A stretch of DNA of 64,000 nt from Ramlibacter sp. WS9 (GTDB lineage Bacteria; Pseudomonadota; Gammaproteobacteria; Burkholderiales; Burkholderiaceae_C), in contig NZ_RKMB01000008.1 of assembly GCF_003797765.1 (NCBI RefSeq), forward strand, positions 124,001-188,000. Reading direction: 5' to 3'. The notes beneath the pieces are model-generated. The model was given only the letters and a program-made list of their open reading frames with translations, was not told the DNA's origin and searched no databases. Positions 17,623-63,589 of this stretch are shown here, in pieces (the stretch's first letter is position 1; the number at the start of each line of letters is the position of its first letter). Position numbers and translations under genes: made by a program.

Positions 17623-17670
17623 GCGTTCAGCCCAAGGGCTCCAAAAGAATGATTGAGTAAAACGGGAACC

Positions 17671-18285
17671 TTACTTGCCGACGTCCATCAGAAGTTCCTT
17701 CAGCGCGGCGTCCAGTTGACCAGCCACGCTGTTGATAGAAGCGTTGCCTAGTAATCCGAACATCGAAGAAGGCCTGTCGTATTCGAATACTGCGGTACCG
17801 TCGGCGCCCTCGTACAGAATCACACGGATGGGCGCGTAGAGACCGGCGGCCACGTCGTGCTTGTTCATGGAGACGGCGGTCAGGACATTGCCAATGCCAT
17901 ATCCAACTGCCTTGCGGGGCCTCCCGTCCATGGCCAGCGCAGCGCCGTGATTCAGTGAGTACAGGATCGACAATCCGGTTGGCGCTGCCAGCCGCTCCAG
18001 TTCGGCGCGCGCACCGGCCATGTCCTTTTTTTGCAGGTACGGAATCAGCAGATCGACCTGGACAAAACGGACCCGCGACTCAAGTGCGGTCTTCACGTCG
18101 TCAAACGATCTCTTTGAACTGATGCGGATGTGCTCCACCGTCAAAGGCCGCGTGCTCACGCGTTCCTCCTGGGTTGCGGCTGCCGCAAGACCGTGCGCTG
18201 TCAACAGGCCGAAGGTTTCCAGCCCAATCAGAGCGGCGCTTGCGAATGACCGCAAGTGGCTCGTGGCGGTTGGTTTCGTCGTCAT
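17671..18285 (-). CDS. DUF302 domain protein, exported
   Basis: A 204-residue protein. The ATG at 18285 is chosen because AAGGAGA lies five bases before it; an earlier in-frame start at 18312 would overlap the flavin-subunit gene. The N-terminus (about residues 1-40) contains a hydrophobic stretch with Ala-rich cleavage-like sequence, so export is likely. The C-terminal half has the DUF302 pattern with APIRVILYEGADGTAVFEYDRPSSMFG. DUF302 proteins have no settled function. The location between the molybdenum hydroxylase and its CoxG-like partner hints at a role in assembly or envelope attachment (inference). Confidence 0.8.
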   Translation of the reverse strand: MTTKPTATSHLRSFASAALIGLETFGLLTAHGLAAAATQEERVSTRPLTVEHIRISSKRSFDDVKTALESRVRFVQVDLLIPYLQKKDMAGARAELERLAAPTGLSILYSLNHGAALAMDGRPRKAVGYGIGNVLTAVSMNKHDVAAGLYAPIRVILYEGADGTAVFEYDRPSSMFGLLGNASINSVAGQLDAALKELLMDVGK

Positions 18286-18308
18286 GGTTGTCTCCTTCTT
18301 ATCCTTGC

Positions 18309-19162
18309 TCAAACGGGGGAAATTGCATCGACCAGCGCGCGACGAAGCATCGTGCGCCCCAGCTGAGTGCGATAGTCGGCGTCGGCGAAGCGGTCCTCCA
18401 GAGGTGAGGCGCCCGTAAACGCCAGGTCGATCAGGCGTTCCGTTTGGTCGGGCTGGCCGGCATATCCGGCCAACGCGGCTTCGGCGGCTTTGGCACGGAA
18501 TGCATGGGCCGAATGACCTGTCACCGCAATCCGTCCGCCACTGCAGCGATTGGCCTCGTAGGCCAGAACCACGGCCACGCCGACGACGGCATATCCCGAT
18601 GCTGGATGGCGGAACTTGCGGTAAGCCCCGCGCTGGTTCGACCCCGCCGGGATGCGCACGCGTACGACGATCTCATCGAGCCGCAGGTCGGTTTCGAACA
18701 GGCCCTTGAAGAACGAAGCGGCGGGAATCGAACGCTGGCCTTTGGGCCCGATGACCTCGACCGTCGCGTCAAGTGCCAACATCGCCGCCGGCCAATCGGC
18801 CGAAGGATCGGCGTGCGCCAGGGAGCCGCCAATGGTGCCGCGATTGCGCACGGTCGGGTCCGCGATCAGTCCGGCGATGCTCGGAAGTAACGGCATTGCC
18901 TCGGCCAGCTCAGCGTGATGTTCAAGCTGGGCGTGGGTTGTCGCCGCGCCGATGACAATCTCGTTTGTGCCGATCATGATGCCTTGAAGTTCAGGCAGTT
19001 CGGCGATGTCGATCAGCGTCCCGGGCGCGGCAAGCCGCAGTTTCATCATTGGCAGCAGCGAGTGGCCGCCACTCATCAACTTCGCACCATCGCCCCCTTG
19101 CGCGAGTTGAGCGAGTGCCTCGGACAAACTGCCGGGTCGGATGTACTCAAATGCACTCGGGA

Positions 19163-25556: not shown

Positions 25557-26666
25557 ATGCCAATATGCGGGTTGGTTAGTGCCACCCTTGCAACCAACGG
25601 GGTCACGATGACACTACCCAAGCTGACTTTCATCCACCGCCCAGGAGATCGCAATGCGCCGCAACTCAGCCTGTTCGGGTTGAACGCACTCGTCGATGAA
25701 ATGGAGAGCCAGGGCGTGTCTTTGCGGGCCCTGCTCAGTCGAACAGGGGTTCCAAGCGAGCAGTTCGACGACCATTCAGCGCTGATCTCCCGGGGCCAGC
25801 GCTTGGCCATCTATCGCAATGCGCAGCGCCTCGCGAAGCGATCGGATGTGGCGCTGCGCGCGGGGGCGCGGCAGCGCATCAGCGATTTCGGCATCTGGGG
25901 CTATGCCTTGGCCAGCAGCAAGACACTCGGTGATGCGATGGACCTGTCATTTCGGCAGCTTCGGCATTTAGGACCTGTTCTGCAGATCACCTCACGCGTC
26001 GAAGGTGGAGCGATCAAGTTGCGCAGTCATGATCCCGCGTCGCTGGGCGAACTCCTGCCATTCGTTGCGGAGTTCTGGCGCAGCTCGAACCATGCCTTCC
26101 TCAGCCACATGCTGGAGGCGCCGCTTCCTTCCGCGCGAATGTTGCTGCCTTACCCCGCGCCGCCTCATTGGCGAACCTACAGCCAGATGTTCAACTGCCC
26201 GGTCGAGTTCGCAGCCGAAACCATGGAGTGGCACTTTCCCGAATCGGCCTGGAGCTTGCCTTTGCCCAACGCGAACCCCGTGCTGGCCAAGGTTTGCCAA
26301 CGCTTCTGCGAACAGGTCTTGTCGGAGCAACCCCCGGCGTCGGAGCTCGCTGACTCCATCAGAGTCATTCTCGTGAATCAGCCGGGGCGCTTTCCCAATA
26401 TCGATGAGATTGCTGCCGACCTTGGCACGTCGCTGCGCACGCTCAACCGCAGACTGGCTTCAGAGGGACTGTCCTACCAGTCCATCATCGACGATGTTCG
26501 CCGGACGCTCGCAGTGGAGTACCTCGAACGTACCGCGCTCTCGGTCGAAGAGGTCTGCGAGCGTGTTGGCTTTTCGGATCCGTCCAACTTCCGGAAGGCG
26601 TTCAGAAAGTGGACGGGGAGATCGCCAACCCATTTCCGAGCCGAGACTGCGGCAACCAAGACGTAG
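25557..26666 (+). CDS. AraC family regulator, divergent to the molybdenum hydroxylase operon
   Basis: A 369-residue AraC regulator, with ATG at 25557 behind an AAAGGTGA site; a second ATG at 25608 fits the length of its paralogue and cannot be excluded. The N-terminal ligand domain has QRISDFGIWGYALASSKTLGDAM, LLPFVAEFWRSSNHAF and YPAPPHWRTYSQMFNCPVEF. The C-terminal DNA-binding part has IAADLGTSLRTLNRRLASEG and VEEVCERVGFSDPSNFRKAFRKWTGRSP. It is transcribed away from the enoyl-CoA hydratase operon across about 100 bases, the usual layout for a local activator. Confidence 0.92.
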   Translation: MPICGLVSATLATNGVTMTLPKLTFIHRPGDRNAPQLSLFGLNALVDEMESQGVSLRALLSRTGVPSEQFDDHSALISRGQRLAIYRNAQRLAKRSDVALRAGARQRISDFGIWGYALASSKTLGDAMDLSFRQLRHLGPVLQITSRVEGGAIKLRSHDPASLGELLPFVAEFWRSSNHAFLSHMLEAPLPSARMLLPYPAPPHWRTYSQMFNCPVEFAAETMEWHFPESAWSLPLPNANPVLAKVCQRFCEQVLSEQPPASELADSIRVILVNQPGRFPNIDEIAADLGTSLRTLNRRLASEGLSYQSIIDDVRRTLAVEYLERTALSVEEVCERVGFSDPSNFRKAFRKWTGRSPTHFRAETAATKT

Positions 26667-45700: not shown

Positions 45701-45907
45701 ATCCCGCTCACGCGCAGCGTTTTCTGGGGACCGATGGCCATCTCGATCATGGGCGGCCTGGTTGTGGCCACGGCACTCACACTCGTCTTCGTGCCGGCGC
45801 TCTACGCTGCCTGGTTCCGCGTTCGGCGCGACTCCCCCGCGCAGAAGGAAACGGCAGGACCGATCACTTTCGTAGCCCCAGGCGCGGGCGAAAGGTCCCA
45901 TGCTTGA
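42785..45907 (+). CDS. RND efflux permease (HAE1 family)
   Basis: A 1040-residue inner membrane transporter with the usual twelve-span layout: first span near residues 12-30 ([16 protein letters not shown]), porter domain with [22 protein letters not shown], central spans with the essential aspartates in [19 protein letters not shown], and a second half repeating the pattern ([20 protein letters not shown]). Proton-driven export of drugs, solvents or aromatic compounds is expected. The nearby aromatic catabolism suggests a solvent or intermediate as substrate (inference). Confidence 0.95.
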
Positions 45908-46577
45908 GCTCGCAAACGCCGGCGGCCGGCGCCGCAAGCAGGAACGCCCTCGAGAACTGCTCGATGCCGCACTGGCTGTCTTTGTGGAAAGAGGTTTCGC
46001 TGCAGCCCGGGCGGAAGAAATCGCCTCGCGCGCTGGCGTTTCCAAGGGAACGCTGTACCTCTACTTCAACAGCAAGGAAGACCTGCTCAGGACGCTCATC
46101 TCCGAGGGCTTCTCCAGCCGAATCGAAGGGTGGGCGGATCAGATGGCAACGAGCGCGGGCGCAAGCAGCGAGCTGCTCCGCCAGGCGCTGACGAGGTGGC
46201 AGGCTTCGTTGGCGCAAAGCCAGGCTGGGGGCATCTTCAAGCTGGTCCTGACAGAGGCGCGGCACTTCCCGGGACTGGCGGACTGCTGGGACCGCGAGGT
46301 GATGCGCCCGGTGCGCGCGCTCGTTTCGCACATCCTTGCGCGCGGCATCGCGCGGGGGGAGTTCCGCACATTCGATGTCGACCTCGCAGTGCACGCGCTG
46401 ATCCTGCCGATCGTGATGGCGTGCTTGCACCGGCACACGATCGGGTCCCTCGTGCCGGACGACTTTCTGATGCACACCCCCGATCTTGTCGGCCGCCATA
46501 TCGAACTAGTCCTGGATGGCTTGTACCGGCATTCAGATCGCGGCCGGGAAGGCGGCGCCGCAATCACGGTCATCTAA
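45900..46577 (+). CDS. TetR/AcrR family regulator at the end of the pump operon
   Basis: A 225-residue TetR regulator whose ATG overlaps the permease stop by 8 bases. The helix-turn-helix is [44 protein letters not shown]. The C-terminal part includes [24 protein letters not shown], typical of TetR_C domains in AcrR proteins. With the TetR gene at 39463 it makes two TetR regulators for one pump. Confidence 0.92.
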
Positions 46578-47490: not shown

Positions 47491-47961
47491 TCATCCCTTG
47501 CGACTGTGAGCGACCTTTTGCAGCAATTGAAGGAGCATGAGCCGCTCTGCCTCGGTCAGGTCCCTCAGGATCTCTCGATCGGCCTCGAGCAGCGCCGTGA
47601 GAGCCTTTGAGACGAGCGCTTCACCTTTACGGGTGATACGCAGATCCTGGGTGCGTCGATCCACGGAGCCGCGCTCGCGCGCAATGAGTCCGCGCTGCTC
47701 CAGCTGATCAAGCCACACCTTGACGCCGGGGGTTGTCACGGCCAGTGACTTGGCGACCCGGGCGGCGGTCACCGGCGCATTTGCCCGGACGAGCTGCAGG
47801 ATGGTGAACTCGACCTTCCGAAGGTCAAGCGGCTCCCCGACCGAGCGGGTAAAGGCCTCGCTGGTAAGGATCGCGGCCTGGGCCAGCTGGTAACCGAGCA
47901 GGTCATGCATGCCGCCCTCTGCGAGCGCACCCTGCGGCGTGAGGGTCTCTTCGGTCTTCAT
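47491..47961 (-). CDS. MarR family regulator
   Basis: A 156-residue MarR regulator: VEFTILQLVRANAPVTAARVAKSLAVTTPGVKVWLDQLEQRGLIARERGSVDRRTQDLRITRKGEAL is the winged helix with the wing DRRTQ. It is divergent from the tannase-like esterase gene across 264 bases, and convergent with the SDR. Regulation of the esterases by an aromatic acid is a reasonable guess. Confidence 0.9.
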   Translation of the reverse strand: MKTEETLTPQGALAEGGMHDLLGYQLAQAAILTSEAFTRSVGEPLDLRKVEFTILQLVRANAPVTAARVAKSLAVTTPGVKVWLDQLEQRGLIARERGSVDRRTQDLRITRKGEALVSKALTALLEADREILRDLTEAERLMLLQLLQKVAHSRKG

Positions 47962-49995: not shown

Positions 49996-51630
49996 GTGAT
50001 CCGTCGTCCCTTCTCGCTAGCCTTCTGGATCGCCACGAGCGCCGCCACCCTTGCAATGGTTGGCTGCGCGAACAAGGCGGGGGTTGCAGTCGATGCAAGC
50101 CGCTCGACCGCAACAACCGTAACGACCGAAAACGGCAGCGTCAAAGGTCTTGCGAAAGGAAGCGCGGAGGTATTCCTCGGCCTGCCTTTCGCAGCGCCAC
50201 CAATGGGAAGCCTGCGCTGGGCACCCCCCGAGAGAGCCGCTTCCTGGCAGGGCGTACGAGACGGGACGGTCGCGGGACCGAGTTGCCCGCAGATGGGCGG
50301 CTCCCCGGTCATCGGTCGGACCGAGAACGAGGACTGCCTTCTTCTCAACCTCTATCGTCCCGCCGGCACTGCTTCGGGCGCATCGCTCCCCGTACTTGTG
50401 TATGTTCACGGTGGGGCCAATACCGTCGGCGGCGCAGTCCAGATCGACGGCGCTCGCATGGCGACAGAAAACGGGGTTATGGTCGTTGCCATCAATCACC
50501 GCCTGGGATCACTCGGTTTCTTGAATCATCCCGCGCTCGCCCAGCAGGCCAAGGATCGCCTGGCGGGAAACTATGCATTGCTTGACATCAAAGCAGCGCT
50601 GGAATGGGTTCAACGCAACATCGGTGCATTCGGCGGCAATCCCAAAAAGGTGACGTTGGGAGGAACCTCGTCGGGAGGAACCAACGTTTGCCCGCTCCTT
50701 GTCAACCCTGGCACCGCTGGACTCATTCATGCGGCGATCATTTCCAGTGATGATTGCTTGCGGGACGTCGACACGGTCGCGCAATCGGAGGCGCGCGCGA
50801 CGGCGTTCGCGGCCAAGCTTGGATGTACGAAACCTGAGAATGTCGTGACCTGCCTGCGCTCCAAGAGCGCCGGCGAGTTGGTGACTGCGGGCGGCGCCTG
50901 GAATCCACATGTCGATCCCAAGGGCTTTCACCGCAAACCTGCGATCGACACGATCGCGGCAGGCGAATGGAGAGCCGTGCCTGTATTAATGGGCAGCACG
51001 CGGGAAGAAGGTCGTGGTTCCGGCGGGGCCTTCGCCAACTTCACGGCGCAGGCGTACGCGACCTGGGTCACCCGGCTGGTCGGGGCTGACCGCGCCCCAG
51101 CGCTGCTGGCGGCCTATCCAGCGGACAAATACTCGGGCCAGTACGCGCTGTCCTATGTGGTCGGAGACCTCATTACCGACAGCGGGATGCGCGGTCTCGG
51201 CGGTTGCACCAACCTGGCGCTGGCAAGATCTATCGCCCGGCAAGCACCCACTTACTACTATCAGTTCGAGGATTCAAGCCCACCGGCGCCCTCGACGCCG
51301 CCAGGCTATGAGTTTCGCGCCTCACATGGGCTCGATACGCCGTTCACGTGGCCCGATTCTCCTCACATGGCCCAGTCCTCCTCACGGTTTAGCGAAGCGC
51401 AGCGGCAGTTGTCGAAGGAGATGACCCGCTACTGGGCCGCTTTCGCCAAGAACTTCAACCCGGAGGTTCCGGGGCAGGCGGAGTGGCCTCGAATGATCGC
51501 CGACGGATCGTTGATGTCGCTGCGGCCAGGCGGACAGAGCCGAGCTACGCCTGTCGCACAGTTTGCAGAAATGCACAAATGCGCTTTGTGGGAAAAGATG
51601 CCTTGGGTGCTCGATCGCGGCGAACGCTGA
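49996..51630 (+). CDS. Type-B carboxylesterase, secreted lipoprotein
   Basis: A 544-residue carboxylesterase starting at GTG 49996 after TAGGAG. The signal ends in a lipobox (TLAMVGCANK). VYVHGGANTVGG forms the oxyanion hole, LGGTSSGGTNVCPLL holds the nucleophilic Ser (GTSSG instead of the usual GESAG), STREEGRG the acid residue and RASHGLDTPFTW the His. Co-transcription with the tannase-like enzyme suggests successive hydrolysis of ester substrates outside the inner membrane. Confidence 0.92.
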   Translation: MIRRPFSLAFWIATSAATLAMVGCANKAGVAVDASRSTATTVTTENGSVKGLAKGSAEVFLGLPFAAPPMGSLRWAPPERAASWQGVRDGTVAGPSCPQMGGSPVIGRTENEDCLLLNLYRPAGTASGASLPVLVYVHGGANTVGGAVQIDGARMATENGVMVVAINHRLGSLGFLNHPALAQQAKDRLAGNYALLDIKAALEWVQRNIGAFGGNPKKVTLGGTSSGGTNVCPLLVNPGTAGLIHAAIISSDDCLRDVDTVAQSEARATAFAAKLGCTKPENVVTCLRSKSAGELVTAGGAWNPHVDPKGFHRKPAIDTIAAGEWRAVPVLMGSTREEGRGSGGAFANFTAQAYATWVTRLVGADRAPALLAAYPADKYSGQYALSYVVGDLITDSGMRGLGGCTNLALARSIARQAPTYYYQFEDSSPPAPSTPPGYEFRASHGLDTPFTWPDSPHMAQSSSRFSEAQRQLSKEMTRYWAAFAKNFNPEVPGQAEWPRMIADGSLMSLRPGGQSRATPVAQFAEMHKCALWEKMPWVLDRGER

Positions 51631-51684
51631 CCTGCTGCCGGTGATCGCTGGTGCGGGCACGCTGCAGTCATCAGGGCCCACCTG

Positions 51685-52668: not shown

Positions 52669-53829
52669 TCATGTGGGTTGGAGATTCGCGCTGCGCGGAT
52701 CGATCAGTATCTTGGCCTGCTCTTCGGGGTCGCCGAGGGCTGCAAAGGCATTCGCCACCCCATCCAGGCCGACCATGCCGGTCACCATGAAAGCGCAGCT
52801 GACCTTGCCTTCGGCAATCATGTGCAGAGCATCGCGGTATTCGAGCGGCGAGTAACCCATCACGAAACGCAAGTCAATTTCCTTGTGGATGCCGAGTGCC
52901 GGCTCAATGCGGTCTTCCTGCATGCAGACGCCCGCTACCACCACGCGCGAAAACAGCGGCGCGCCGTCGAGAATGGTCTGCAGGATGCCGGGCACGCCGA
53001 CGCATTCGAAGATCACCGGGCGCTTCGGTTTCAGGCCGAGTCCTTCCGCAATGCGCCAGACATGCCACCAGGGCAGCGGCAGCTTGCCCAGCCTTTCGCG
53101 CGTATCGACGGCCAGTTCCAGCAGGCCGCCGAAGCTGGCAATGTGGCCGTATTGCTGCCAGTTCGCATACGGCGACTCATCTTTCGGGTCGATTACCAGG
53201 TCGGCGCCGCAGTTCTTCGCCAGCGCCCGCCGGCCGGCGGAAAAATCGCTTGCCACCACGGTGCGCACGCCCTTGGCCTTCAGCATGCAGATCACGCCCA
53301 GGCCAACCGGACCGCAGCCGATCACGATCGCCACGTCACCCTGCTTCACTTCGGCGCGATTGACCGCATGCAGGGCGACGGCCAACGGTTCAGTCAGGGC
53401 CGCCTGGTCTTCATGCAAGCCGTTCGGAATCGGCATCATCATGTTTTCATCAACCAAGATGCGCTCGGCATAGGCGCCGGGGGCAAGGGCGGAAAGCCCG
53501 AGCAGCTCGATATTGTCAGCCTGGCGCGTGACCGGCACCACCGCTACGCGCGTGCCGGCGCGCTGCTTGCGCGTCGTGCCGGGTCCATGTTCGAGTATCT
53601 CGCCGCAGAACTCATGGCCGAACACGATCTCTTCTTCGGCGCGCAGGGAGTTCTTGTAGCCGATACGGGTCAGGAGATTGCCCATGTGGCTACAGTGATG
53701 GCGCACATGCAGATCCGAGCCGCAGATGCCGCAGCGCAGGACGCTCAGCAGCACCTGGCCCTTGCCCGGGACCGGTTCGGGACGCTCTACCACCGCGAGT
53801 TCGGCGTTCTTGCAAACGACTGCTTTCAT
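52669..53829 (-). CDS. Zinc-binding alcohol dehydrogenase (MDR family)
   Basis: A 386-residue medium-chain dehydrogenase. LRCGICGSDLHVRHHCSH and EIVFGHEFCGEILEHG give the catalytic zinc ligands Cys, His and Glu. VIGCGPVGLGVICMLKAKG is the NAD(P) motif. The four-Cys structural zinc lobe is absent where expected (VTRQADNIELLGLS). Such enzymes oxidise secondary or cyclic alcohols. It is the second gene after the alpha/beta hydrolase, transcribed from promoter site A, and no ribosome binding site is obvious. Confidence 0.92.
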   Translation of the reverse strand: MKAVVCKNAELAVVERPEPVPGKGQVLLSVLRCGICGSDLHVRHHCSHMGNLLTRIGYKNSLRAEEEIVFGHEFCGEILEHGPGTTRKQRAGTRVAVVPVTRQADNIELLGLSALAPGAYAERILVDENMMMPIPNGLHEDQAALTEPLAVALHAVNRAEVKQGDVAIVIGCGPVGLGVICMLKAKGVRTVVASDFSAGRRALAKNCGADLVIDPKDESPYANWQQYGHIASFGGLLELAVDTRERLGKLPLPWWHVWRIAEGLGLKPKRPVIFECVGVPGILQTILDGAPLFSRVVVAGVCMQEDRIEPALGIHKEIDLRFVMGYSPLEYRDALHMIAEGKVSCAFMVTGMVGLDGVANAFAALGDPEEQAKILIDPRSANLQPT

Positions 53830-53886: not shown

Positions 53887-54756
53887 TCATTTGGACTCCG
53901 TAGGTGAGCTATGCAAGAAATCGAGCAGCAGCGCGTTCACGCGCACGGGATCATCGAGCTGCAGCCAATGGCTGGCGCCGTCGATGCGCTCGTAGCGCCA
54001 ACTGCCCTCGACCAATTTTTCGCAGTCGAGCATCTGCTTCTCGGCCAGGAATTTATCGCCGCTGCTCCAGATGCCAAGGACGGGGACCGTCACCGGCGGA
54101 TAAGCGCGCGGCATGAAGATGCCGAGGTTGGCGCGGTAATAATTGAGGGCCGCCGTCAGCCGTCCGGGCCGGGCCAGCCATTGGGTGGCCAGCACGCATT
54201 CCGGATGCTGCCCGGTCGCGGCGCGGAACAGGGACCAGTCAAACGAGCGCAGCGCCCATTCTGCGAGACCGCGCAGCTGAAACAGCAGGACGTAATACCC
54301 TTTGATTTTTTGTTCCAGCGGGCCGCGCGCATAGGCATTCGGATGGCCGACCGACAGCGCCGCGTAGCGCTCGACCCGCTCCGGATGGCGCATGCAGAAT
54401 TGCCAGCAGATCGCCGCGCCCCAGTCATGCCCGATCAATTGCGTGCGCGCCACGCCCAGCGCATCGAGCACGCCGACCAGATCAGCTACCAGAAGGTCAA
54501 TGCGATAGTCGGGCCTGGCCGCGGGCGCGTCCGACCTGCCGTAGCCGCGCATGTCTGGCACGATTACCTGGTAACCGGCGATCACCAGCGCGGGCACCTG
54601 CCGCCGCCAGACCGCCATATCGTCGGGAAAACCATGCACCAGCAACAGCGCGGGCCCCTCGCCATGCACTGCAACATTGAGCTCGATACCATTGACACGG
54701 AGCTTCCGGCTGGCCGCCGTGACGGCTGCCGCGCCAATTTCCAAGAACTGGGTCAT
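53887..54756 (-). CDS. Alpha/beta hydrolase, epoxide hydrolase/haloalkane type
   Basis: A 289-residue hydrolase, ATG 54756 behind GGGGAGAC. LLLVHGFPDDMAVWRRQVPAL provides HGxP, LIGHDWGAAICWQF the Asp nucleophile, and IDGASHWLQLDDP the catalytic His. It could open an epoxide or hydrolyse a lactone/ester. It is the first gene of the unit controlled by site A, divergent from araC. Confidence 0.9.
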   Translation of the reverse strand: MTQFLEIGAAAVTAASRKLRVNGIELNVAVHGEGPALLLVHGFPDDMAVWRRQVPALVIAGYQVIVPDMRGYGRSDAPAARPDYRIDLLVADLVGVLDALGVARTQLIGHDWGAAICWQFCMRHPERVERYAALSVGHPNAYARGPLEQKIKGYYVLLFQLRGLAEWALRSFDWSLFRAATGQHPECVLATQWLARPGRLTAALNYYRANLGIFMPRAYPPVTVPVLGIWSSGDKFLAEKQMLDCEKLVEGSWRYERIDGASHWLQLDDPVRVNALLLDFLHSSPTESK

Positions 54757-54833: not shown

Positions 54834-54898
54834 ATGATAGAAATAGAAGCTTTTAAATACGATGTCCGACGCCGCCAACTCCATGTCATTTCCCGACA
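54834..54898 (-). promoter_or_regulatory. AraC-type promoter site A (hydrolase-alcohol dehydrogenase unit)
   Basis: On the minus strand two 17-base half-sites, TGTCGGGAAATGACATG (54898-54882) and TGGCGGCGTCGGACATC (54877-54861), are direct repeats with a 21-base phase. Exactly 21 bases after the second is TATCAT (54839-54834) as the -10. The proximal half-site covers the -35 position, as in class II activation. The same design recurs at 61073 and 63525. The distal end is 30 bases from the araC start, so autoregulation is possible. Confidence 0.85.
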
Positions 54899-54928
54899 GC
54901 CGGCCGTAACGATGAAAGGCGGGCCGCA

Positions 54929-55972
54929 ATGAAGCCGCAGTCGCGTCGCATCCCGGTTCGTTACCTGCTGCAATTGCGCGACATGCTGCGCGAATCCGGC
55001 GTCGACACTGACCGCCTGCTGGTCATGGCCGGCATCAACGAGCCGCGGTTCAATGACGCCAGCTCTCTGCTTTCGGCGGCCGAGGTGGAAGCCTTTGTCT
55101 CGTCTGCGCGTCAGCTGACCGGCCGTACCGACCTGGGCTTCGAAGCCGGTCGCCTGATCAAGATGAATTCCCATGAATTGCTCGGCTATGGCATGCTGAG
55201 CTGTCGCAATGTGGACCAGGTCCTGCAACTGGTATCGCGCCACTATCACCTGATAACCGAAACTTTCACTCTGCGCTACCGGCGCGAGGACCGTTGCGGC
55301 GAAGCGATCTACACGCCGGCGATGCGCATGCCGCTGGAAACGCTGAATTTCTACTACGAGGTGCTGGTCACCGCGCATTGCAATCAGATCCGTCTTTTGC
55401 TGGGCAACGATGTACCACCCTACGACTGCTATCTGTCGATGGCCGAACCGGCGCACGGCAGGCGTTACCTGGCACTGGCGCCGGCGCGCTTTCATTTCGA
55501 GGAAAAAGCACTACCCGGCGTGCGCGTGGTCATGGGCACGGACTTGCTGAACCTGCCTTTGCCAATGGCTGACCAGCGCATGGTCAAGCAAATCGATGCA
55601 CGCTGCGACGCGCTGGGCCAGCGCCCGCCGGCCGACGATGAAGGATGGGGCGACTACGTCAGCATGATGCTGCGCCAGGCAAGCGGCGAAATCGTCACGC
55701 TGGAAGACCTCGCCCGCCGCATCAATATTTCGCCGCGCACGCTGGACCGCCATCTCAAAAAGGAAAAGCTGCAATTTCGAGACCTATCGCAGCAAGTGCG
55801 CTTCGAAAAGGCCCGCGAGCTGCTCAGCGCGCCCGGCGCCACGGTGGTTCAGGTCGCGCTATCGCTCGGCTTCTCCGACGCAGCGAACTTCAGCCGAGCC
55901 TTCCGGCGCACCGTGGGCATCTCGCCCAGCCAGTTTCAGCAGGACCTGGCCGGTGACAGTTCCAGCACCTGA
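54929..55972 (+). CDS. AraC family regulator of the catabolic island
   Basis: A 347-residue AraC regulator with an arabinose-binding-type N-terminal domain (VRYLLQLRDMLRESGVDTDRLL, LTGRTDLGFEAGRLIKMNSHELLGYGMLS) and a C-terminal double helix-turn-helix (LEDLARRINISPRTLDRHLKKE, VVQVALSLGFSDAANFSRAFRRTVGISPSQF). AAAGGCGGG lies before the ATG. It is not a close copy of the two AraC paralogues at 2305 and 25557. It is the only regulator in the island and lies beside site A, so it is the best candidate to bind all three promoter sites. Confidence 0.93.
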   Translation: MKPQSRRIPVRYLLQLRDMLRESGVDTDRLLVMAGINEPRFNDASSLLSAAEVEAFVSSARQLTGRTDLGFEAGRLIKMNSHELLGYGMLSCRNVDQVLQLVSRHYHLITETFTLRYRREDRCGEAIYTPAMRMPLETLNFYYEVLVTAHCNQIRLLLGNDVPPYDCYLSMAEPAHGRRYLALAPARFHFEEKALPGVRVVMGTDLLNLPLPMADQRMVKQIDARCDALGQRPPADDEGWGDYVSMMLRQASGEIVTLEDLARRINISPRTLDRHLKKEKLQFRDLSQQVRFEKARELLSAPGATVVQVALSLGFSDAANFSRAFRRTVGISPSQFQQDLAGDSSST

Positions 55973-56002
55973 GTCTGTGAGATTCCATAGACCCGCCCGT
56001 TG

Positions 56003-57760
56003 TCAGCCCAGCAAGGCATTAAAGAAAATTCGCGGAATTTTCAGAAAGCTCGGTCGGTACTGAAACGCTACCAGCAGCCGCCCCAAAATATGCCCCTTGC
56101 GGTTGGTGACGAACCATGGCGGACGGGGCAGCAGGGTAAACGACAAGCTCAGCAAATTGCGGGGAAACGGTCGGAACGGCGCTTCGACCACGGTGCGTTC
56201 CGGCCGATCAAACAAGGCGGTGTTATGCACGACACCAATCCCGCTCTGCACGTCCTCAAGCGTGTGTCCGGGAAAAGCGCCCCAGGTAGCTTGCGGTGTT
56301 AAAAACCCCAGACCAGTCCACGCATTGATGGCGATGGTGCCGTAGCGCAGCTCGATCAGGAGCTCTTCCATGCGCACCCTGCCGATTTGCGCGATGGTCG
56401 CCGGATGGATCACGATATTGGCGCCGAGCGTGCCATGCAATTCCGAATTGACGTAGGCAATGGCGGCCTTCAGAAAGGCCTCCGGATCGGCGGCCGATAG
56501 TTCAACCTGACTCATCGCAGGGGCAAATACTTCGGTGGTCCTGTCATAGGCGTTCTCTTTCCCCATCGGCGCGATCAGTACCGGTTCACCCCCGCGCCTT
56601 GGCACCCTTTTGGCCTTTGGATTATTTTTGGTGAATTCGGTGATCCTGTCCTTGGCGCCCGGGTAATAGAGACTACGCGCCTGGGAAGCCGAGATGACGT
56701 CTTCCAAGGCGCTGACGAAATCGGATTTCTGACTCCATTCCCTCGGCAAGACCAGCACCTGGCAAGCGACACAATTAAATCCGCTGTTATGCAATTTTTG
56801 TGTTGCCACCTGCTCGGCCTGGAATTCGATATCGGCGGCCGTCCACGGTCCTGGCACGACGATGGTCGGGCAGACGGCACCCAGTTCCGACGTGATGGTG
56901 CGGCTGTTTCTGGGTTTGCCGGCAGCCTTGCTGGCCTTGGCCTCATCTCCCGTACCCCAGACGATGGCATCGTGCGACGCACCGGACCCGGTGATGTGAA
57001 TTTCGTCCACCAACCTGTGATTGCACAAGTACTGGCCGCAGTCGGCGCCCCCCCGGACAATTCGCACAACGCCGCGTTCGATCAGCGGTTGAAAGACCGG
57101 CGTGAGAAATTCAATCAGGTAATCATTGACCGGATTCATTTTGAGAATCACGACCTGGTTCTCGCTAAAGAGCTTTTGAAACACATCCAGTGGCGCGATC
57201 GCCGCAATATTGCCCGCTCCCAGCACCAGCGCCACTTTGCCTTTCTTATGGGCGAAGCTCAATGGATCGTAAATCGATGCCGTATTGGCGCGCAGCGTCG
57301 CCGGCGTAATTCCGGGTTGCATCCATACATCGACCTTGACGCCACTCAACAGCAAATGGTCCCATATCGAATGCGGCAATACGCGTGCGGCAACCTGGCC
57401 ATTGGGAAGCTCGCGTACCAGCGTATGGTCCAGATGCTTTTTCCCCTTCACCTGCGATAAGGTCGCAATCATTTGATTACAGTAGCCCATCACGGTGTAG
57501 GGACCGGATATCCATTCTTCGCCGACCAGGGGAGAACCATTGGCGATGTCTTTCTTGCGGGCCGCTGTTTCCGCCCAGCTTCTGGCAACCGGCATCAGCC
57601 GGTCCTTGATTTCCTGCAGGATGCCGATGCGCTCCGCTACAGTCGTTTTAAGCCAGCGATCCTTGTTTCCAGCAAGAGTGTTTAATGCCTGATCGAGTTC
57701 GTCATAGGGAATCGAGGGAATCGAGGGAATCGATTGTTGGGACAATTTCGGGGAAATCAT
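56003..57760 (-). CDS. Aldehyde dehydrogenase family protein with C-terminal extension
   Basis: A 585-residue member of the aldehyde dehydrogenase superfamily, longer than the usual 480-500. The ATG at 57760 overlaps the upstream stop in ATGA. HNSGFNCVACQVLVLP places the catalytic Cys; TSELGAVCPTIVVP holds the Glu region; VALVLGAGNIAAIAPLDVF is the nucleotide segment. The C-terminal 60 residues (FRPFPRNLLSLSFTLLPRPPWF and on) are extra. It ends 30 bases from the convergent araC stop. It would oxidise an aldehyde made in the island pathway. Confidence 0.88.
   Translation of the reverse strand: MISPKLSQQSIPSIPSIPYDELDQALNTLAGNKDRWLKTTVAERIGILQEIKDRLMPVARSWAETAARKKDIANGSPLVGEEWISGPYTVMGYCNQMIATLSQVKGKKHLDHTLVRELPNGQVAARVLPHSIWDHLLLSGVKVDVWMQPGITPATLRANTASIYDPLSFAHKKGKVALVLGAGNIAAIAPLDVFQKLFSENQVVILKMNPVNDYLIEFLTPVFQPLIERGVVRIVRGGADCGQYLCNHRLVDEIHITGSGASHDAIVWGTGDEAKASKAAGKPRNSRTITSELGAVCPTIVVPGPWTAADIEFQAEQVATQKLHNSGFNCVACQVLVLPREWSQKSDFVSALEDVISASQARSLYYPGAKDRITEFTKNNPKAKRVPRRGGEPVLIAPMGKENAYDRTTEVFAPAMSQVELSAADPEAFLKAAIAYVNSELHGTLGANIVIHPATIAQIGRVRMEELLIELRYGTIAINAWTGLGFLTPQATWGAFPGHTLEDVQSGIGVVHNTALFDRPERTVVEAPFRPFPRNLLSLSFTLLPRPPWFVTNRKGHILGRLLVAFQYRPSFLKIPRIFFNALLG
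57707..57733. repeat. 9-base tandem repeat GGGAATCGA, three copies
   Basis: Three exact copies lie at the start of the aldehyde dehydrogenase gene and encode Ser-Ile-Pro repeats (QQSIPSIPSIPYDE). The frame is kept, so copy number changes would only lengthen the N-terminus. Confidence 0.9.
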
Positions 57761-59574
57761 GATTTGGCTTTTCCGGCAGCGAGGGCAGCCTGATCCTTTT
57801 CGGCACCGAGAGGGTCGATGCAAATAAAGGAAGGAACATGGTCTTCAATCGCGTAGGCCGGCATGTTCGATGAACTTGAACATACACGCCCATCCCTGGT
57901 GAACGACATGTCACGCAGGACGGTCACGCGGGTCGGGCTCGGATAACTCTGAAACGTTTTGCTGACCGGCGAAAAGCGCACGACGCGATCCGAATTATTT
58001 GCCGTGATCCACACGTCGCCGGTGCTTTTGTGCACGTTGAGCGCATAGGGCGTCTCGTATTCGCCAGCTGCCACGCCAGGGATTTTCCAGGTTTCGAAAT
58101 GTTTGGCGCTCGTGTCAAAACTCATCAGGCCGCCCTCGTCAAAGGAAGGAATCCAGAGCACACCCTTGCTATCGAATCGCGGTCGACGCGGCCCCTTCAT
58201 GGGCGTATCGAATTCGGTGATTTCCATCGTTTCTGCATCGATGCGGCCGATTTTCCCCGCGTACAGCTTGGCGTACCAGATGCTGCCATCGACTGGATTG
58301 ACATCAATTCCATATGGGAAGGCCAGCACCTGGTATCCCAGGAACTTATGGTGCGAGAAATCCAGCAGCAGAGCCTTGCCCGGGAACCAGGACGAAATCC
58401 TCAGAAGTGTCGGAAACAGCATGTCGCTGACCCACCGAAAAAATCCATTGGAGGGCAAGGCCATCACTTTCATCGATTCGGTCTTGGGGTCAAAACGCGC
58501 GACCATATTGGATGCGGCAATGGTGAACCAGACGATGTCGTGCTTGTCGACGCGTATCGTGTGCGGATAGAGGGCGTCGTTTCCGACCGGATAAGTCTTG
58601 AAGACCTTCGTTCCCGGGTCGAAGGACATCAGGGTGCTCGACAAGGCGTTGGTGATCCAGATACGGCCGTCGGAAGTTTGCGCCATGCTGTGCGGGCCGT
58701 GCTTGCCGCTGAACATGCCGATCGGCAGCTGCATGCCGGAGAATTTGCCGCCGCGCGGCAGGTCGATATCGGGCAGCGGATATTTTTCTACATTCCCCGA
58801 TTGTCGATCCAGCACCCAGACGAGATCGTGTCCTTCGTCGGTGCCGTACAGCTTCTGGTCTTCCGCGACATCGAGGTCGTGGATGAAAGACATGGCATCA
58901 CCGACCAGCCATTCCTCGGTCTTGGCGCGCGCCAATTCTGCCGTGGGGCCGTAATTGTGCTTGGCCTCAACCGGCTTGTTGGTAAAGCCGCGGCTCAACA
59001 CATCGGCTATCGTATTTACTTCACCGGATGACAGCATGGCCACCATGCCTTCCATCTTCGTGATGGTGCCGATCCAGGCATCGTGACTGCGCGGGATCCG
59101 CGTCGTTGAATTACCCATCTGATGACAGTAATTGCACTGGCTGACAAATGGTCCGCGATCCTCGATCTTTTGCCAGGGCAGCAATGCATTGTGGGCAGAA
59201 GCAGACAATGCATCCGATGCGTCCTGTACGTTGGCGAATGTCTTCAGTCGCAAATTCAGCGCGCTGTGCTGATCGGCGCTCACCTGCACAGTGGAGCGGT
59301 TGTCTTCATAGTTTGCCATGCGCACCCGCACACCGAGTTTGCCCTCGAAAGGAGTACGTATCGTGTAACCTCCATTGGCATCGGCATACACCGTTTCGCG
59401 CCGGTTGGCCGCTTCGTTAAATACCGTGACCATGGCGCCGAACGCCGGCTTGCCATCGGGCGTAGTGACTTGACCGGTAAAGGAAGCCGCGTAGGCTGCG
59501 GGAATCCACATTACACTGCCGAGCAAAAGAAAGGCAAGTCGCGCCTGGCGGGTAAGAGCGGGGGGATTCTTCAT
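57757..59574 (-). CDS. Exported protein: carboxypeptidase-regulatory-like domain, c-type haem site, Vgb-like beta-propeller
   Basis: A 605-residue exported protein. Signal peptide residues 1-30 (cleavage near AYAAS). Residues about 32-112 form a carboxypeptidase regulatory-like beta-sandwich (GQVTTPDGKPAFGAMVTVFNE). Residues 147-151 are CNYCH, a c-type haem site, followed by HDAWIGTITKMEGMVAML. From about 215 to 590 repeats such as HSMAQTSDGRIWITNALSSTLMSFDP, HTIRVDKHDIVWFTIAASNMVARFDP and YALNVHKSTGDVWITANNSDRVVRFSP make a virginiamycin B lyase/SMP-30-like propeller. It is likely a periplasmic electron-transfer or sensing protein; true lyase activity is not supported. It is coupled to the aldehyde dehydrogenase gene. 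Confidence 0.85.
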   Translation of the reverse strand: MKNPPALTRQARLAFLLLGSVMWIPAAYAASFTGQVTTPDGKPAFGAMVTVFNEAANRRETVYADANGGYTIRTPFEGKLGVRVRMANYEDNRSTVQVSADQHSALNLRLKTFANVQDASDALSASAHNALLPWQKIEDRGPFVSQCNYCHQMGNSTTRIPRSHDAWIGTITKMEGMVAMLSSGEVNTIADVLSRGFTNKPVEAKHNYGPTAELARAKTEEWLVGDAMSFIHDLDVAEDQKLYGTDEGHDLVWVLDRQSGNVEKYPLPDIDLPRGGKFSGMQLPIGMFSGKHGPHSMAQTSDGRIWITNALSSTLMSFDPGTKVFKTYPVGNDALYPHTIRVDKHDIVWFTIAASNMVARFDPKTESMKVMALPSNGFFRWVSDMLFPTLLRISSWFPGKALLLDFSHHKFLGYQVLAFPYGIDVNPVDGSIWYAKLYAGKIGRIDAETMEITEFDTPMKGPRRPRFDSKGVLWIPSFDEGGLMSFDTSAKHFETWKIPGVAAGEYETPYALNVHKSTGDVWITANNSDRVVRFSPVSKTFQSYPSPTRVTVLRDMSFTRDGRVCSSSSNMPAYAIEDHVPSFICIDPLGAEKDQAALAAGKAKS

Positions 59575-59613
59575 AAGTTGTCTCTTTTGAAATTGCCGAC
59601 CGAATTGATAGCT

Positions 59614-60051
59614 TCAGGCTTGTTCCCACAGGGGCAGGGGATATGCCTTTCCCTGCACCTTGCGCTGCGCGCTGCCTAACCAGACCGGCAGCGTATGACT
59701 GAAATGAAAGGATGCAAGGAGGCCGATCGCCAGGATCGACATCAATGGGCCACCAAATAGCAAATTCCCGAGCAGCATGACGCCGGAAATATCGAGCTTC
59801 GGCAAATGCAGCGCATCACCCAGCCACAGCACCACGATCAGCAGCAGGCCGGTAAGCTGGTTGAGTTGGAGGATCGACTTGAACAGCCGGAACCCGGTGC
59901 CTTTCCACATCAGGATTGCTTGCAAAAGCAGGCAGGCACCCGGCACGTAATAGGCACTGGCGCTCATGCCTAGCAGTGCCATGAAAATACTGGAGGCAAG
60001 CAGCAGTGCGGTGAACACTTTGGCTTGGGTTGGTCTGGTTTCTATTTTCAT
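59614..60051 (-). CDS. Unknown small membrane protein, about four spans
   Basis: A 145-residue hydrophobic protein that I do not recognise. Spans are likely at FTALLLASSIFMALLGMSA, YYVPGACLLLQAILMW, LTGLLLIVVLWLGDAL and VMLLGNLLFGGPLMSILAIGLLASF. It lies between an SDR and the haem/propeller protein in the same unit, so it could anchor or supply electrons to the exported protein (inference). The ATG at 60051 follows GAGGTGATTAC on the minus strand. Confidence 0.7.
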   Translation of the reverse strand: MKIETRPTQAKVFTALLLASSIFMALLGMSASAYYVPGACLLLQAILMWKGTGFRLFKSILQLNQLTGLLLIVVLWLGDALHLPKLDISGVMLLGNLLFGGPLMSILAIGLLASFHFSHTLPVWLGSAQRKVQGKAYPLPLWEQA

Positions 60052-60152
60052 GTAATCACCTCTCGTTTAATGACAATGCCGCAGGTGTACGGGACTCTGT
60101 TTCAAGGCATGCACGCTGCTGTTTCTTCTTGCTGGAAATTTGAGCTTCCGCC

Positions 60153-60986
60153 TCAGAGATATCCGGCCTGGCGGGAAAAGCGCAGCATCATCTTGCGCAT
60201 CAGCCGCAGCGACAGACGTCGCAGGTGATACGTCAGCGCCGCTCCGGGCCCGCTGAGCACGATGTCGCCGTCGTTCATCACCGCCCTGACCATGTCTTCA
60301 CCGACCACGTCAGGCGAGCAGCCCTTCGTCGCGTAAAAGTTCTGCAGCTTCGCCAGCGTGGCAGCGGTGACACTGGCTGCGACCAGCGCGTGCGCCTTGA
60401 CAATGGGCGTATTGATGATGCCTGGACAGATGGTGCTGATATGCGCAGGGGTATCCGCCAGCTCCAGTTTCAGTACTTCGCTGAAACAGAGCACCGCCCC
60501 CTTGGACGCCGCATAGGCCGCCATCGACGGGCCGGGATAGTTTGCCGCGCTCGAAGCAACGTTGAGGATGTGCCGTGGTCCGCCGGCGGCCAGCATCTGC
60601 GGCATGAAGGCGTGACAGCCATGCACCACGCCCATGACATTGATGGACATCACTCGGCGCCAGTGATCGAGATCGCCCTCCAGGAACTTGCCTAGGTAGC
60701 CAATGCCAGCATTGTTGATCAGCACATGGGCAGCGCCGACACGCTCTTGTACCGCAGCCGCGAAGGCGCGCACTGCCGCCTCGTCGGAGACATCGAGCAC
60801 GCCAGTCAGGCACTTTGCACCCAGGGCTTCGATTTCCCGTCTGACCTCCCCGAGCGCGGTTTCGCTGATGTCTGTGGCAACGATGTAGGCGGTGCGACGC
60901 GCAAAGGCGAGCGCTGCAGCGCGGCCGATGCCGGAACCGGCGCCGGTGATGACGACGATCTTGTCCTTCAAATGCTTGATGGCCAT
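60153..60986 (-). CDS. SDR family oxidoreductase (classical)
   Basis: A 277-residue SDR. The ATG at 60986 follows AAGGAGAC. VVITGAGSGIGRAAALAFA, LINNAGIGYLGKFLEGD and VASSAANYPGPSMAAYAASKGAVLCFSEV make a full active site. The C-terminus has a basic extension (LRRLSLRLMRKMMLRFSRQ) common in membrane-associated SDRs. It is the first gene of the unit behind promoter site B and may oxidise an alcohol in step with the aldehyde dehydrogenase. Confidence 0.9.
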   Translation of the reverse strand: MAIKHLKDKIVVITGAGSGIGRAAALAFARRTAYIVATDISETALGEVRREIEALGAKCLTGVLDVSDEAAVRAFAAAVQERVGAAHVLINNAGIGYLGKFLEGDLDHWRRVMSINVMGVVHGCHAFMPQMLAAGGPRHILNVASSAANYPGPSMAAYAASKGAVLCFSEVLKLELADTPAHISTICPGIINTPIVKAHALVAASVTAATLAKLQNFYATKGCSPDVVGEDMVRAVMNDGDIVLSGPGAALTYHLRRLSLRLMRKMMLRFSRQAGYL

Positions 60987-61072
60987 GGTTTGTCTCCTTA
61001 TTTGAATTTCTGATAGAGGAAATCCAAGTGAGCTTGCCGCAATGTGCAGGCACTGATTTCGCTTATGGAGAG

Positions 61073-61137
61073 ATGATAGGAAGCGAATCACATCGCGGCC
61101 ATGTTCGATGCCGCCACCTTCATGTCATTTGCCGACA
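61073..61137 (-). promoter_or_regulatory. AraC-type promoter site B (SDR-propeller-aldehyde dehydrogenase unit)
   Basis: On the minus strand TGTCGGCAAATGACATG (61137-61121) and TGGCGGCATCGAACATG (61116-61100) repeat with a 21-base phase, then 21 bases later TATCAT (61078-61073). The layout is identical to site A. The SDR start is 87 bases downstream of the -10. Confidence 0.85.
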
Positions 61138-61179
61138 ACCGGAGATGGGCCAAGCGGACTTCTGCGCGGCCCCTAACAA

Positions 61180-62805
61180 TCAGACCGTCGGCAATCGATG
61201 TGCGCAATACAGTTCGCGCAACTTGGTCTTCTGCATCTTCCCAGTCGCACCGAGCGGAATCGTATCGGCGAACACCACGTCATCCGGCGTCCACCACTTC
61301 GCGATCTTTCCGTCGAAAAATTCCAGCATCTGCTCGCGCGCCAGCTCCGCACCAGGCTTTCTGACGACCACCAGCAGCGGCCGCTCATCCCATTTCGGAT
61401 GCACGATCCCGATGCAGGCCGCCATCGCCACGGCCGGATGCGCCACCGCGACGTTTTCGATGTCGATCGAGCTGATCCATTCGCCGCCGGACTTGATCAC
61501 ATCCTTGGCCCGGTCGGTGATCTGCATGAAGCCGTCGACATCGATATTGGCCACGTCGCCGGTCGGGAACCAGCCATCGATCAACGGATTGCCGCCCTCG
61601 CCCTTGAAATAGCGATCGACGATCCACGGTCCACGCACCAGCAGTTCGCCGCTGGTCTCGCCGTCCCACGGGATTTCCTTTCCCAGGCTGTCTACCACTT
61701 TCATATCGACGCCGAACACGACACGGCCCTGTTTCGCTTGCACGGCATAGCGCTCGGCGCTGTCTTGTTCGAGGTTCCTGGCCTTGAAATTGCAAACGGT
61801 GCCCAGCGGACTCATTTCCGTCATGCCCCAGACATGCAGCACAAATACCCCGTACTTTTCCTGGAAGGTGCGCATCATCGTCGGCGGACAGGCCGAGCCG
61901 CCGATGATGGTGCGCTTCATCGTCGAGAATGTCAGGTTGTTCGATTCCACGTACGCGAGCAATCCCTGCCACACTGTCGGCACGCCGGCCGACAGCGTGA
62001 CGCGCTCGCCTTCGAACAGGTCATGCAGGGACTTGCCGTCGAGCGCCGCGCCGGGAAACACCAGTTTGGCGCCGACCATGCAGGCGATATACGGCAAACC
62101 CCAGGCGTTCACATGGAACATCGGCACGACCGGCAGCACCGCGTCATGCGCAGAACAATGCAGCGCATCAGGCAAGGCGGCGGCATAGGTGTGCAGCAGG
62201 GTCGAGCGATGGCTGTACAGGACGCCTTTTGGGTTGCCGGTGGTGCCGCTGGTGTAGCACAGGCTGGAGGCACTGTTCTCGTCAAACGATGGCCAGGCAA
62301 ACTGGTCGTCTTGCGCATCGACCAGGTCTTCATAACACAGGAGTCCGTCGATCTTCGATGCCGGCATGTGAGCGCGATCGGTCATGACGACAAAATGCCT
62401 TATCGTCTTTACGCGCGAAGCGATCGCTTCCACCAATGGCAGGAAAGTCAAATCGAAGAACAGCACCTGGTCTTCGGCGTGATCGGCGATGTACACGACC
62501 TGGTCCGGATGCAGGCGCGGATTGAGCGTGTGCAGGATCGAACCCGATCCCGACACTGCGTAATACAGTTCCATGTGACGGTAGCCGTTCCAGGCCAGGG
62601 TCGCAACCGTCGCGCCCGCCTGCACGCCCAGCGCCGCCAGGGCGTTCGCCATGCGCCGTGAGCGAGCCGCAAGATCGCGATAGGTATAACGGTGGATATC
62701 ACCTTCGATGCGGCGCGATACGATTTCCTGCTCGCCATGGTGGCGTTCAGCGTATACCAGGAGGCTCGAGATCAGCAGCGGCTGCTGCATCATTTGTCCG
62801 TTCAT
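61180..62805 (-). CDS. Medium-chain acyl-CoA ligase (AlkK-like AMP-binding enzyme)
   Basis: A 541-residue adenylate-forming ligase. LCYTSGTTGNPKGVLYSHRS is the ATP loop, HVWGMTEMSPLGTVCNF the aryl/acyl contact, DGWFPTGDVANIDVDGFMQITDRAKDVIKSGGEWISSIDIE the hinge, and IPLGATGKMQKTKLRELY ends with the catalytic Lys. It resembles medium-chain fatty acid ligases such as AlkK. It lies 166 bases after the cupin gene on the same strand, and no repeat of the AraC site is found in that gap, so read-through from site C is likely. Confidence 0.92.
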   Translation of the reverse strand: MNGQMMQQPLLISSLLVYAERHHGEQEIVSRRIEGDIHRYTYRDLAARSRRMANALAALGVQAGATVATLAWNGYRHMELYYAVSGSGSILHTLNPRLHPDQVVYIADHAEDQVLFFDLTFLPLVEAIASRVKTIRHFVVMTDRAHMPASKIDGLLCYEDLVDAQDDQFAWPSFDENSASSLCYTSGTTGNPKGVLYSHRSTLLHTYAAALPDALHCSAHDAVLPVVPMFHVNAWGLPYIACMVGAKLVFPGAALDGKSLHDLFEGERVTLSAGVPTVWQGLLAYVESNNLTFSTMKRTIIGGSACPPTMMRTFQEKYGVFVLHVWGMTEMSPLGTVCNFKARNLEQDSAERYAVQAKQGRVVFGVDMKVVDSLGKEIPWDGETSGELLVRGPWIVDRYFKGEGGNPLIDGWFPTGDVANIDVDGFMQITDRAKDVIKSGGEWISSIDIENVAVAHPAVAMAACIGIVHPKWDERPLLVVVRKPGAELAREQMLEFFDGKIAKWWTPDDVVFADTIPLGATGKMQKTKLRELYCAHRLPTV

Positions 62806-62971
62806 TTTTTCACTCTTATGTGTTGGTCGTGGCTTTTTTCCGCAAGTCAGGGCGTATCGATGGTGTGGATTCTTCTTGCACGGATAGTCTTCTTGGTTTT
62901 TCTAGGGGGGTGGAAATACATCAAACCTGATCAGGCTTGCGTTCCGCTGCATGCGGGCGAAGTACACGAAC

Positions 62972-63442
62972 TCAGGAAAACGCCGTCAGATCGCGCGGCG
63001 CGATGCCATGCCAACGGCAATGCGCCAGGTAGCGTTCCATCGCGGTCTTCCAGTTTTCGATGGCCAGAATCTTTCCATCCTCATCCTGGAAAAGCAGTTC
63101 GCCGACGACCACATCCAGCAACAGGACTTCGCCTTCCGTGATTCCAGTTTCAGGGGTATGGCGCGATGCAGCGGGCTCGAAGACCACACTGCCGGGGCCA
63201 GCGATCCATTCGTATTCCCTGAACTTCCAGCGGCCTTCGATGGTGTAACTGATCACGGTGCCGGACTGGTAATGCTGTGGCAACAGAACGCGCGCGGGTA
63301 CGCGCATGAGCGCGATCATCTCGCCGCGTATAGGATCCAGCTTGAAGTACTTGACGAATACGCCGTCCGAATACGGCAGGAACGGTATCCACGGCAACGA
63401 TTCATTGTCGATCAGTGCGGCCTGGACTTTTTCATATTGCAT
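62972..63442 (-). CDS. Cupin protein, 2,4'-dihydroxyacetophenone dioxygenase-like
   Basis: A 156-residue cupin. The ATG at 63442 has GGAG six bases before it. The core VPARVLLPQHYQSGTVISYTIEGRWKFREYEWIAGPGSVVFEPAASRHTPE matches the ChrR/2,4'-dihydroxyacetophenone dioxygenase type, which cleaves a C-C bond next to a ketone. Here the first cupin motif reads HYQ where HxH is usual, so one metal-ligand His appears replaced by Gln. The later His (SRHTP) and Glu are kept. It is the first gene of the unit behind site C. Confidence 0.82.
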   Translation of the reverse strand: MQYEKVQAALIDNESLPWIPFLPYSDGVFVKYFKLDPIRGEMIALMRVPARVLLPQHYQSGTVISYTIEGRWKFREYEWIAGPGSVVFEPAASRHTPETGITEGEVLLLDVVVGELLFQDEDGKILAIENWKTAMERYLAHCRWHGIAPRDLTAFS

Positions 63443-63524
63443 GGCATCTCCATTTGGCATCTTGATCGGTGCGATCCGGGCTACGCCTTGTTCACAGGTA
63501 CCCTGCCTGATTCTTGTTGACGCC

Positions 63525-63589
63525 ATCATAGAAAAGGGAGCGATCGGCGACGATGTCTGTAGCCGCCATCTGCATGTCAATTTCTGACA
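63525..63589 (-). promoter_or_regulatory. AraC-type promoter site C (cupin-CoA ligase unit)
   Basis: On the minus strand TGTCAGAAATTGACATG (63589-63573) and TGGCGGCTACAGACATC (63568-63552) repeat with a 21-base phase, then 21 bases later TATGAT (63530-63525). Spacing is the same as at sites A and B to the base. The cupin start is 83 bases beyond the -10. Confidence 0.85.

Follow-up and report, generated by a model that had tools for sequence, protein, structure and literature searches.

The stretch of DNA analysed here, 64,000 nucleotides of contig NZ_RKMB01000008.1 of Ramlibacter sp. WS9 and referred to below as the window, carries three closely similar operators before the minus-strand gene units ABH-ADH, SDR-MEM-SMP-ALDH and CUP-ACS (gene products in Table 1), together with araC, the gene of an AraC-family regulator. 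Judging from its sequence, the AraC protein encoded at 54929-55972 very probably activates the three operons, which comprise eight structural genes, in class II fashion from these sites. The system seems to be a genuine local control circuit of an ordinary kind, and its mechanism is textbook. New are the operator code, the fact that it is conserved, and the pathway tied to it. A pattern first read by eye thereby becomes a testable operator with comparative support.

The 37-bp pattern TGTCNGNAANTGACATG-N4-TGGCGGCNNCNNACAT is matched without mismatch at three sites, all on the minus strand as a preliminary description of this DNA had read them (Operators 1 to 3, Table 1). That description had placed them before the first gene of each of the three units and nowhere else in the window, which our scan bears out, as no further window match was found at up to three mismatches (mean of 100 shuffles 0.00). 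At the same limit the whole genome (6,980,851 bases, 180 contigs) holds these three sites only, with 0 matches in a reversed-pattern control, so that a genome-wide regulon was ruled out. A looser pattern of 16 fixed bases with up to two mismatches gave 16 matches in the genome versus 4 in its reversed control. Zero mismatches occur solely at the three window sites, while one of the other 13 matches has one mismatch and 12 have two; judged by eye, none of these 13 contains the AAnTGACA core.

Each operator is a direct repeat of two half-sites with a period of 21 bp, and the window half-sites read TGTCnGnAAnTGACAT and TGGCGGCnnCnnACAT. The distal halves lie near the consensus TGTCGGnAAnTGACA (maximum score 11.3), which was drawn by eye with the relatives' sites in view, and the proximal halves are weaker and alike at all three promoters (TGGCGGC...ACAT). 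From the proximal ends of the operators to the ATG we count 106 (ABH), 115 (SDR) and 111 (CUP) positions. Pairwise identity of the three promoters amounts to 75-86% within the operators, to 23-33% in the 60 bases before them and to 38-45% in the 80 bases after them. Such unlike flanks around alike operators point to selection on the operator and not to recently copied DNA, and a recent promoter duplication was ruled out on these grounds.

The downstream geometry is equally regular. The 21-base phasing and the 21 bases to TATCAT, TATCAT and TATGAT that had been noted before are exact if the count starts at the base following ACAT; counted from the final A of ACA, the predicted -10 hexamer follows at 23 bases at all three sites. 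With the hexamer set at -12 to -7, the 15-bp cores of the half-sites fall at about -71 to -57 and -50 to -36, with the sixteenth base of the proximal half at -35. The architecture thus has the two half-sites in direct repeat at about 21-22 bp that characterise class II operators (21 bp in three of three) and a proximal half that adjoins the -35 hexamer, overlapping it by 1-2 bases, at a fixed distance from the -10 box. Assuming a 17-bp spacer, the -35 hexamers match TTGACA at 2, 3 and 3 of 6 positions, and a sigma-70 promoter scan reported none of these three promoters. Both results fit activator-dependent promoters, and plain sigma-70 promoters were ruled out by the scan.

The domain content places the regulator in the AraC/XylS family, with an N-terminal sensing and dimerisation domain (PF12625, E 3.5e-26) and a C-terminal domain with two helix-turn-helix motifs (PF12833, E 1.9e-22). 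Its DNA-binding domain aligns with the homologues over the whole domain and is gap-free in the stretch printed. Going by the operator layout, the system works like the published MtlR and ArgR systems. MtlR, an AraC/XylS activator of Pseudomonas fluorescens induced by mannitol, arabitol and glucitol, is described to bind PmtlE at 15-bp blocks at -72 to -58 and -50 to -36, the whole site, 37 bp or longer, lying upstream of the -35 with a strong upstream and a weak downstream half, the latter being a key element for inducer-dependent regulation (PMC4514859). The window cores share these positions almost to the base and the strong-then-weak order of halves, whereas the MtlR half-site AGTGC-N5-AGTAT recurs with a period of 22 and not 21 (PMC4514859). 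ArgR of Pseudomonas, also an AraC/XylS protein, uses tandem 16-bp boxes TGTCGCN6GNAA with 5 bp between them, so that the 21-bp period, the TGTCG start and a second repeat that is generally less conserved are shared, whereas the 3' part of the box differs and the genes belong to an arginine regulon; in P. alloputida the separation of the boxes is variable (PMC10963909). As the window halves lack the GNAA end, the operator works like an ARG box but is not one. The class II AraC-type architecture proposed in the preliminary description is hence supported both by this geometry and by the comparative tests below.

In the proposed mechanism, an AraC dimer would occupy the two 16-bp half-sites on one face of the DNA, two helical turns apart, at about -71 to -57 and -50 to -35, directly before a -35 that departs from the consensus and a good -10 box. 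The bound dimer would contact RNA polymerase and activate CUP-ACS, SDR-MEM-SMP-ALDH and ABH-ADH, the weaker proximal half perhaps being occupied only with ligand present. Such ligand dependence of the proximal half may apply by analogy to MtlR; it need not hold across the AraC subfamily, since among 14 relatives' sites the proximal half is the stronger one in 8 and the distal half in 6. With Operator 1 beginning 31 bp ahead of the araC start codon, a protein bound there should also influence the araC promoter; AraC would repress its own gene, and araC is probably autoregulated in this manner.

AraC-family proteins can also repress, and the local AraC might bind these sites mainly to hold the operons down until its ligand comes. 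The contact of the sites with the -35 would suit such a repressor, and the position of an operator next to araC makes some repression likely, at least of araC itself. Main control by repression is nevertheless very improbable in our view, given that the -35 hexamers match the consensus at 2-3 of 6 positions only and that the site lies upstream of the core promoter, as described for the activator MtlR (PMC4514859).

Operator and regulator were next examined together in related genomes. Loci of relatives were gathered by SMP search (18 loci), by AraC searches and from flanking stretches. A first 37-mer matrix did not separate the weaker sites at L012:9499 and L014:9426 (12.9) from other matches in the 20-kb loci (up to 14.6), and the later tests were therefore confined to upstream regions. 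A half-site matrix built from nothing but the window's six half-sites was then scanned over about 330 bases upstream of 17 distinct AraC homologues of 33-63% identity, a gene present in two loci being counted once. A pair phased by 21 bp was found in 10 of the 17 (shuffle p at most 0.006; identities 63, 55, 54, 48, 43, 42, 42, 39, 36 and 34%), namely in 4/4 homologues of 48-63% and in 6/13 of 33-44%. When spacings of 16-27 were compared in six positives, 21 was clearly best in L011, L024, L047 and L046. Two of three remote AraC controls (24-26% identity) had no pair, and the third (L018) showed the operator in front of the SMP gene, located between that gene and the araC control. The earlier proposal of the local AraC as the regulator is strengthened by these sequence comparisons, as the operator accompanies close AraC relatives across genomes. 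As for the recommended search for more copies, the pattern search of the genome returned the three own sites, and the window matrix gave further operators upstream of AraC relatives.

The distance to the -10 box is conserved along with the operator. When 30 offsets are compared, the best -10-like hexamer falls at 22-24 bases in 16 of 20 aligned operators, that is at 23 in the window and at 22-24 in 13 of 17 relatives' sites, which were hand-picked and do not include L044, L007:3661 and L014:19002. The exceptions are L021:17003, L018:14376, L058 and L066, with the second-best hexamer at 23 in L021:17003 and L066. Taking instead every site scoring at least 16.3, one row for each physical site and with the cut-off fixed after the list had been seen, the hexamer is at 22-24 in 13 of 14 relatives' sites, L018:14376 being the exception. 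Binomial tails of 1.6e-10 (hand-picked) and 1.3e-12 (cut-off set) apply if sites are independent and offsets equally likely; the true statistics are weaker, with L012/L014 and L056/L057 being near-copies and four sites coming from L018.

A further test in 14 genomes asked for the operator before homologues of the structural genes. Where the genome encodes an AraC of at least 42% identity it was found in 5/6 (L011, L012, L014, L018, L024), as opposed to 0/8 in genomes without one, six of which had no match at E 1e-45 and two an AraC of 33-35% (Fisher p 0.003). A stricter first version gave 4/6 versus 0/8 (p 0.015), L011 then resting on a chance-like match. L012 and L014 are both from Rugamonas, and the rows of this test are not fully independent.

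Several observations weigh against activation of these operons by the local AraC or against the tests themselves. The limits of the structural-gene test were relaxed after its first version, which had used a stricter gene threshold, had covered 350 instead of 600 bases and had limited p to 0.02, and in L011 and L024 the same site between araC and SDR was counted in both tests, which consequently overlap. No phased pair was found upstream of 7 of the 13 homologues of lower identity (43, 42, 37, 37, 36, 35 and 33%; p 0.07-0.82). A spacing of 21 is barely ahead of 22 in L021 (12.7 versus 12.0) and is outscored by it upstream of araC in L018 (13.7 versus 11.9). The closest AraC of all (L021, 63%) has no operator before homologues of the window's cluster genes, the sites preceding other genes instead. 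The statement that the proximal half covers the -35 proved too strong, as with a 17-bp spacer this half ends at -35 and overlaps the hexamer by 1-2 bases only. Three further points of this kind, the symmetry of the distal half, the number of related AraC genes and a weak match before one of them, bear on other candidate regulators.

In all three sites the distal half is a perfect TGTC-N7-GACA dyad, as might be read by a regulator of TetR, GntR or MarR type, with the 21-bp repeat setting two dimers side by side; TetR-like and MarR-like ORFs, named by eye, are indeed present in the window (45900-46577, 47491-47961). We nevertheless regard binding by such a protein as very improbable, because the proximal halves in the window are not TGTC-N7-GACA dyads, the operator accompanies close AraC relatives, the near-fixed -10 distance is activator-like, and a search of loci L001-L090 at E 1e-5 gave no homologue of the two window proteins.

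Another AraC might also be the regulator, alone or with the local one, considering that the genome holds 12 PF12625-type AraC genes and that operators much like these accompany further AraC homologues of 39-42% in two Rugamonas genomes (L056, L057, L058), the code thus extending beyond a single orthologue. In the upstream regions of the 11 other genes, however, the matrix gave p of at least 0.06 in 10, with one weak match (L094; score 11.3, p 0.002) compared to 43.3 at the local araC, and the local AraC is the sole own-genome match at E 1e-40 or better among the 34 of 56 first-look candidates that were scored. Control by a paralogue therefore has very little probability. Two more PF12625-type AraC genes lie in the window itself at about 2395-2940 and 25713-26264, and the operator was not found upstream of either (L101, L097).

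Taking the local AraC as the activator, we tentatively extend the reading beyond Ramlibacter. It is conceivable, at somewhat less than an even chance, that a subfamily of PF12625-type AraC proteins (33-63% identity to that of the window; Burkholderiales and other proteobacteria) shares TGTCnGnAAnTGACA, repeated with a period of 21 bp, as its operator code and controls an undescribed pathway, for which the SMP propeller with its CNYCH motif and, in one relative, a DUF1302-DUF1329-MMPL unit serve as markers. If true, the TGTCnGnAAnTGACA code would predict regulon members genome-wide, including far from the cluster. One candidate is a zero-mismatch operator on another contig of the genome with the 63% AraC (G810:C9:10663, L063), followed by AATCAT at 23 bases. 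The sites in L021 precede the DUF1302-DUF1329-MMPL unit, which is divergent from araC, and a glyoxalase/polyketide-cyclase-like gene. The matrix can be used to find candidate regulon members in other genomes, and the circuit links three operons of a probably catabolic pathway to one regulator, which helps to assign that pathway. It also offers a possible inducible promoter system and a natural operator set differing in the strength of the two halves.

AraC was matched at E 1e-40 in 2 of 61 genomes (own and 60 relatives) and at E 1e-50 in 3 of 369 genomes of the class, and SMP at E 1e-60 in 3 of 399 genomes of the order, the own genome being included each time; the operator pattern with at most one mismatch occurs among these 399 genomes in the own genome (G000) only, at 2 of its 3 sites. 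An AraC query of genome_contigs gave 22 pattern matches and one of viral_contigs 1, with 0 confirmed in either, and neither AraC nor SMP had a plasmid match at E 1e-30. Paper searches on the half-site, the family and the cluster, restricted to open-licence PMC, found no paper on this operator.

Table 1. Operators, predicted -10 boxes and genes of the cluster, in window coordinates.
Feature	Position	Strand	Remarks
Operator 1	54862..54898	-	distal half 54898-54883, proximal half 54877-54862; between araC and ABH; half-site scores 11.3 / 8.7 of 11.3
Operator 2	61101..61137	-	distal half 61137-61122, proximal half 61116-61101; before SDR; half-site scores 11.3 / 8.3
Operator 3	63553..63589	-	distal half 63589-63574, proximal half 63568-63553; before CUP; half-site scores 10.6 / 9.3
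Predicted -10 box TATCAT of ABH-ADH	54834..54839	-	best -10-like hexamer of 30 offsets
Predicted -10 box TATCAT of SDR-MEM-SMP-ALDH	61073..61078	-	sequence read and -10-like hexamer comparison
Predicted -10 box TATGAT of CUP-ACS	63525..63530	-	sequence read and -10-like hexamer comparison
araC, AraC-family regulator, 347 aa	54929..55972	+	Arabinose_bd PF12625 E 3.5e-26 (N-terminal); HTH_18 E 1.9e-22 (C-terminal)
ABH, alpha/beta hydrolase, unit 1	53887..54756	-	PF00561 E 6.5e-33
ADH, zinc-type dehydrogenase, unit 1	52669..53829	-	PF08240/PF00107
SDR, short-chain dehydrogenase, unit 2	60153..60986	-	PF00106 E 2.3e-49
MEM, 145 aa, unit 2	59614..60051	-	no Pfam/NCBIfam match
SMP, 605 aa, unit 2	57757..59574	-	CarboxypepD_reg and Vgb_lyase-like propeller; CNYCH motif from translation
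ALDH-like protein, 584 aa, unit 2	56003..57757	-	partial Aldedh PF00171 E 1.2e-12, profile positions 157-292 of 461
CUP, ChrR-type cupin, unit 3	62972..63442	-	PF12973 E 1.8e-9
ACS, acyl-CoA ligase, unit 3	61180..62805	-	NF005426 980.8 bits, cut-off 822

The three units, each inferred from gene order to be one operon, hold 2 + 4 + 2 = 8 structural genes, with araC lying between the divergent ABH and the convergent ALDH gene. Of the nine-gene regulon described earlier the three units thus stand, and the number nine is reached only by counting araC. A homologue of MEM adjoins SMP in 10 of 18 related loci (tblastn). The CNYCH motif of SMP is a possible haem-c site, and the clusters of L021 and L018 contain near full-length Aldedh matches, unlike the partial one of the window.

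The gene content recalls the VirS/mymA operon, in which an AraC regulator stands beside genes for a hydrolase, a dehydrogenase and an acyl-CoA ligase; the likeness is one of gene content. The link to VirS itself is a PDB sequence match of the DNA-binding domain (8rcx, E 3.4e-9). A Pfam scan of nine window proteins found no monooxygenase, which sets the cluster apart from VirS/mymA and likewise from the APR1/AlmA system of Acinetobacter venetianus. There, the AraC/XylS activator APR1 binds the promoter of the catabolic gene AlmA for hydrophobic substrates as well as its own promoter, (PMC11784139); activation of a catabolic gene along with binding to the own promoter would be the shared feature.

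Two related loci carry additional genes. In L021, DUF1302, DUF1329 and MMPL genes follow in a row at 1497-8273 behind the operator of the 63% AraC and perhaps serve envelope transport of a hydrophobic compound, their function being guessed. In L018 (Sinimarinibacterium), the cluster genes include, at 15591-18792, one for a thiamine-diphosphate enzyme and one for a wax ester synthase (WS/DGAT), hinting at long-chain alcohol or aldehyde chemistry.

The cluster is bracketed by a direct repeat of about 571 bases (51063-51633 and G000:C169:188399-188968, the latter being L045:1900-2469) whose copies are 93.5% identical, one being the 3' part of a carboxylesterase gene (49996-51630) and the other a partial copy just past the right end of the window. 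Recombination between the two copies may have led to arrival or may lead to loss of the cluster. Beyond the right repeat, housekeeping-like ORFs follow (lysC, tilS, accA and cysS, named by eye).

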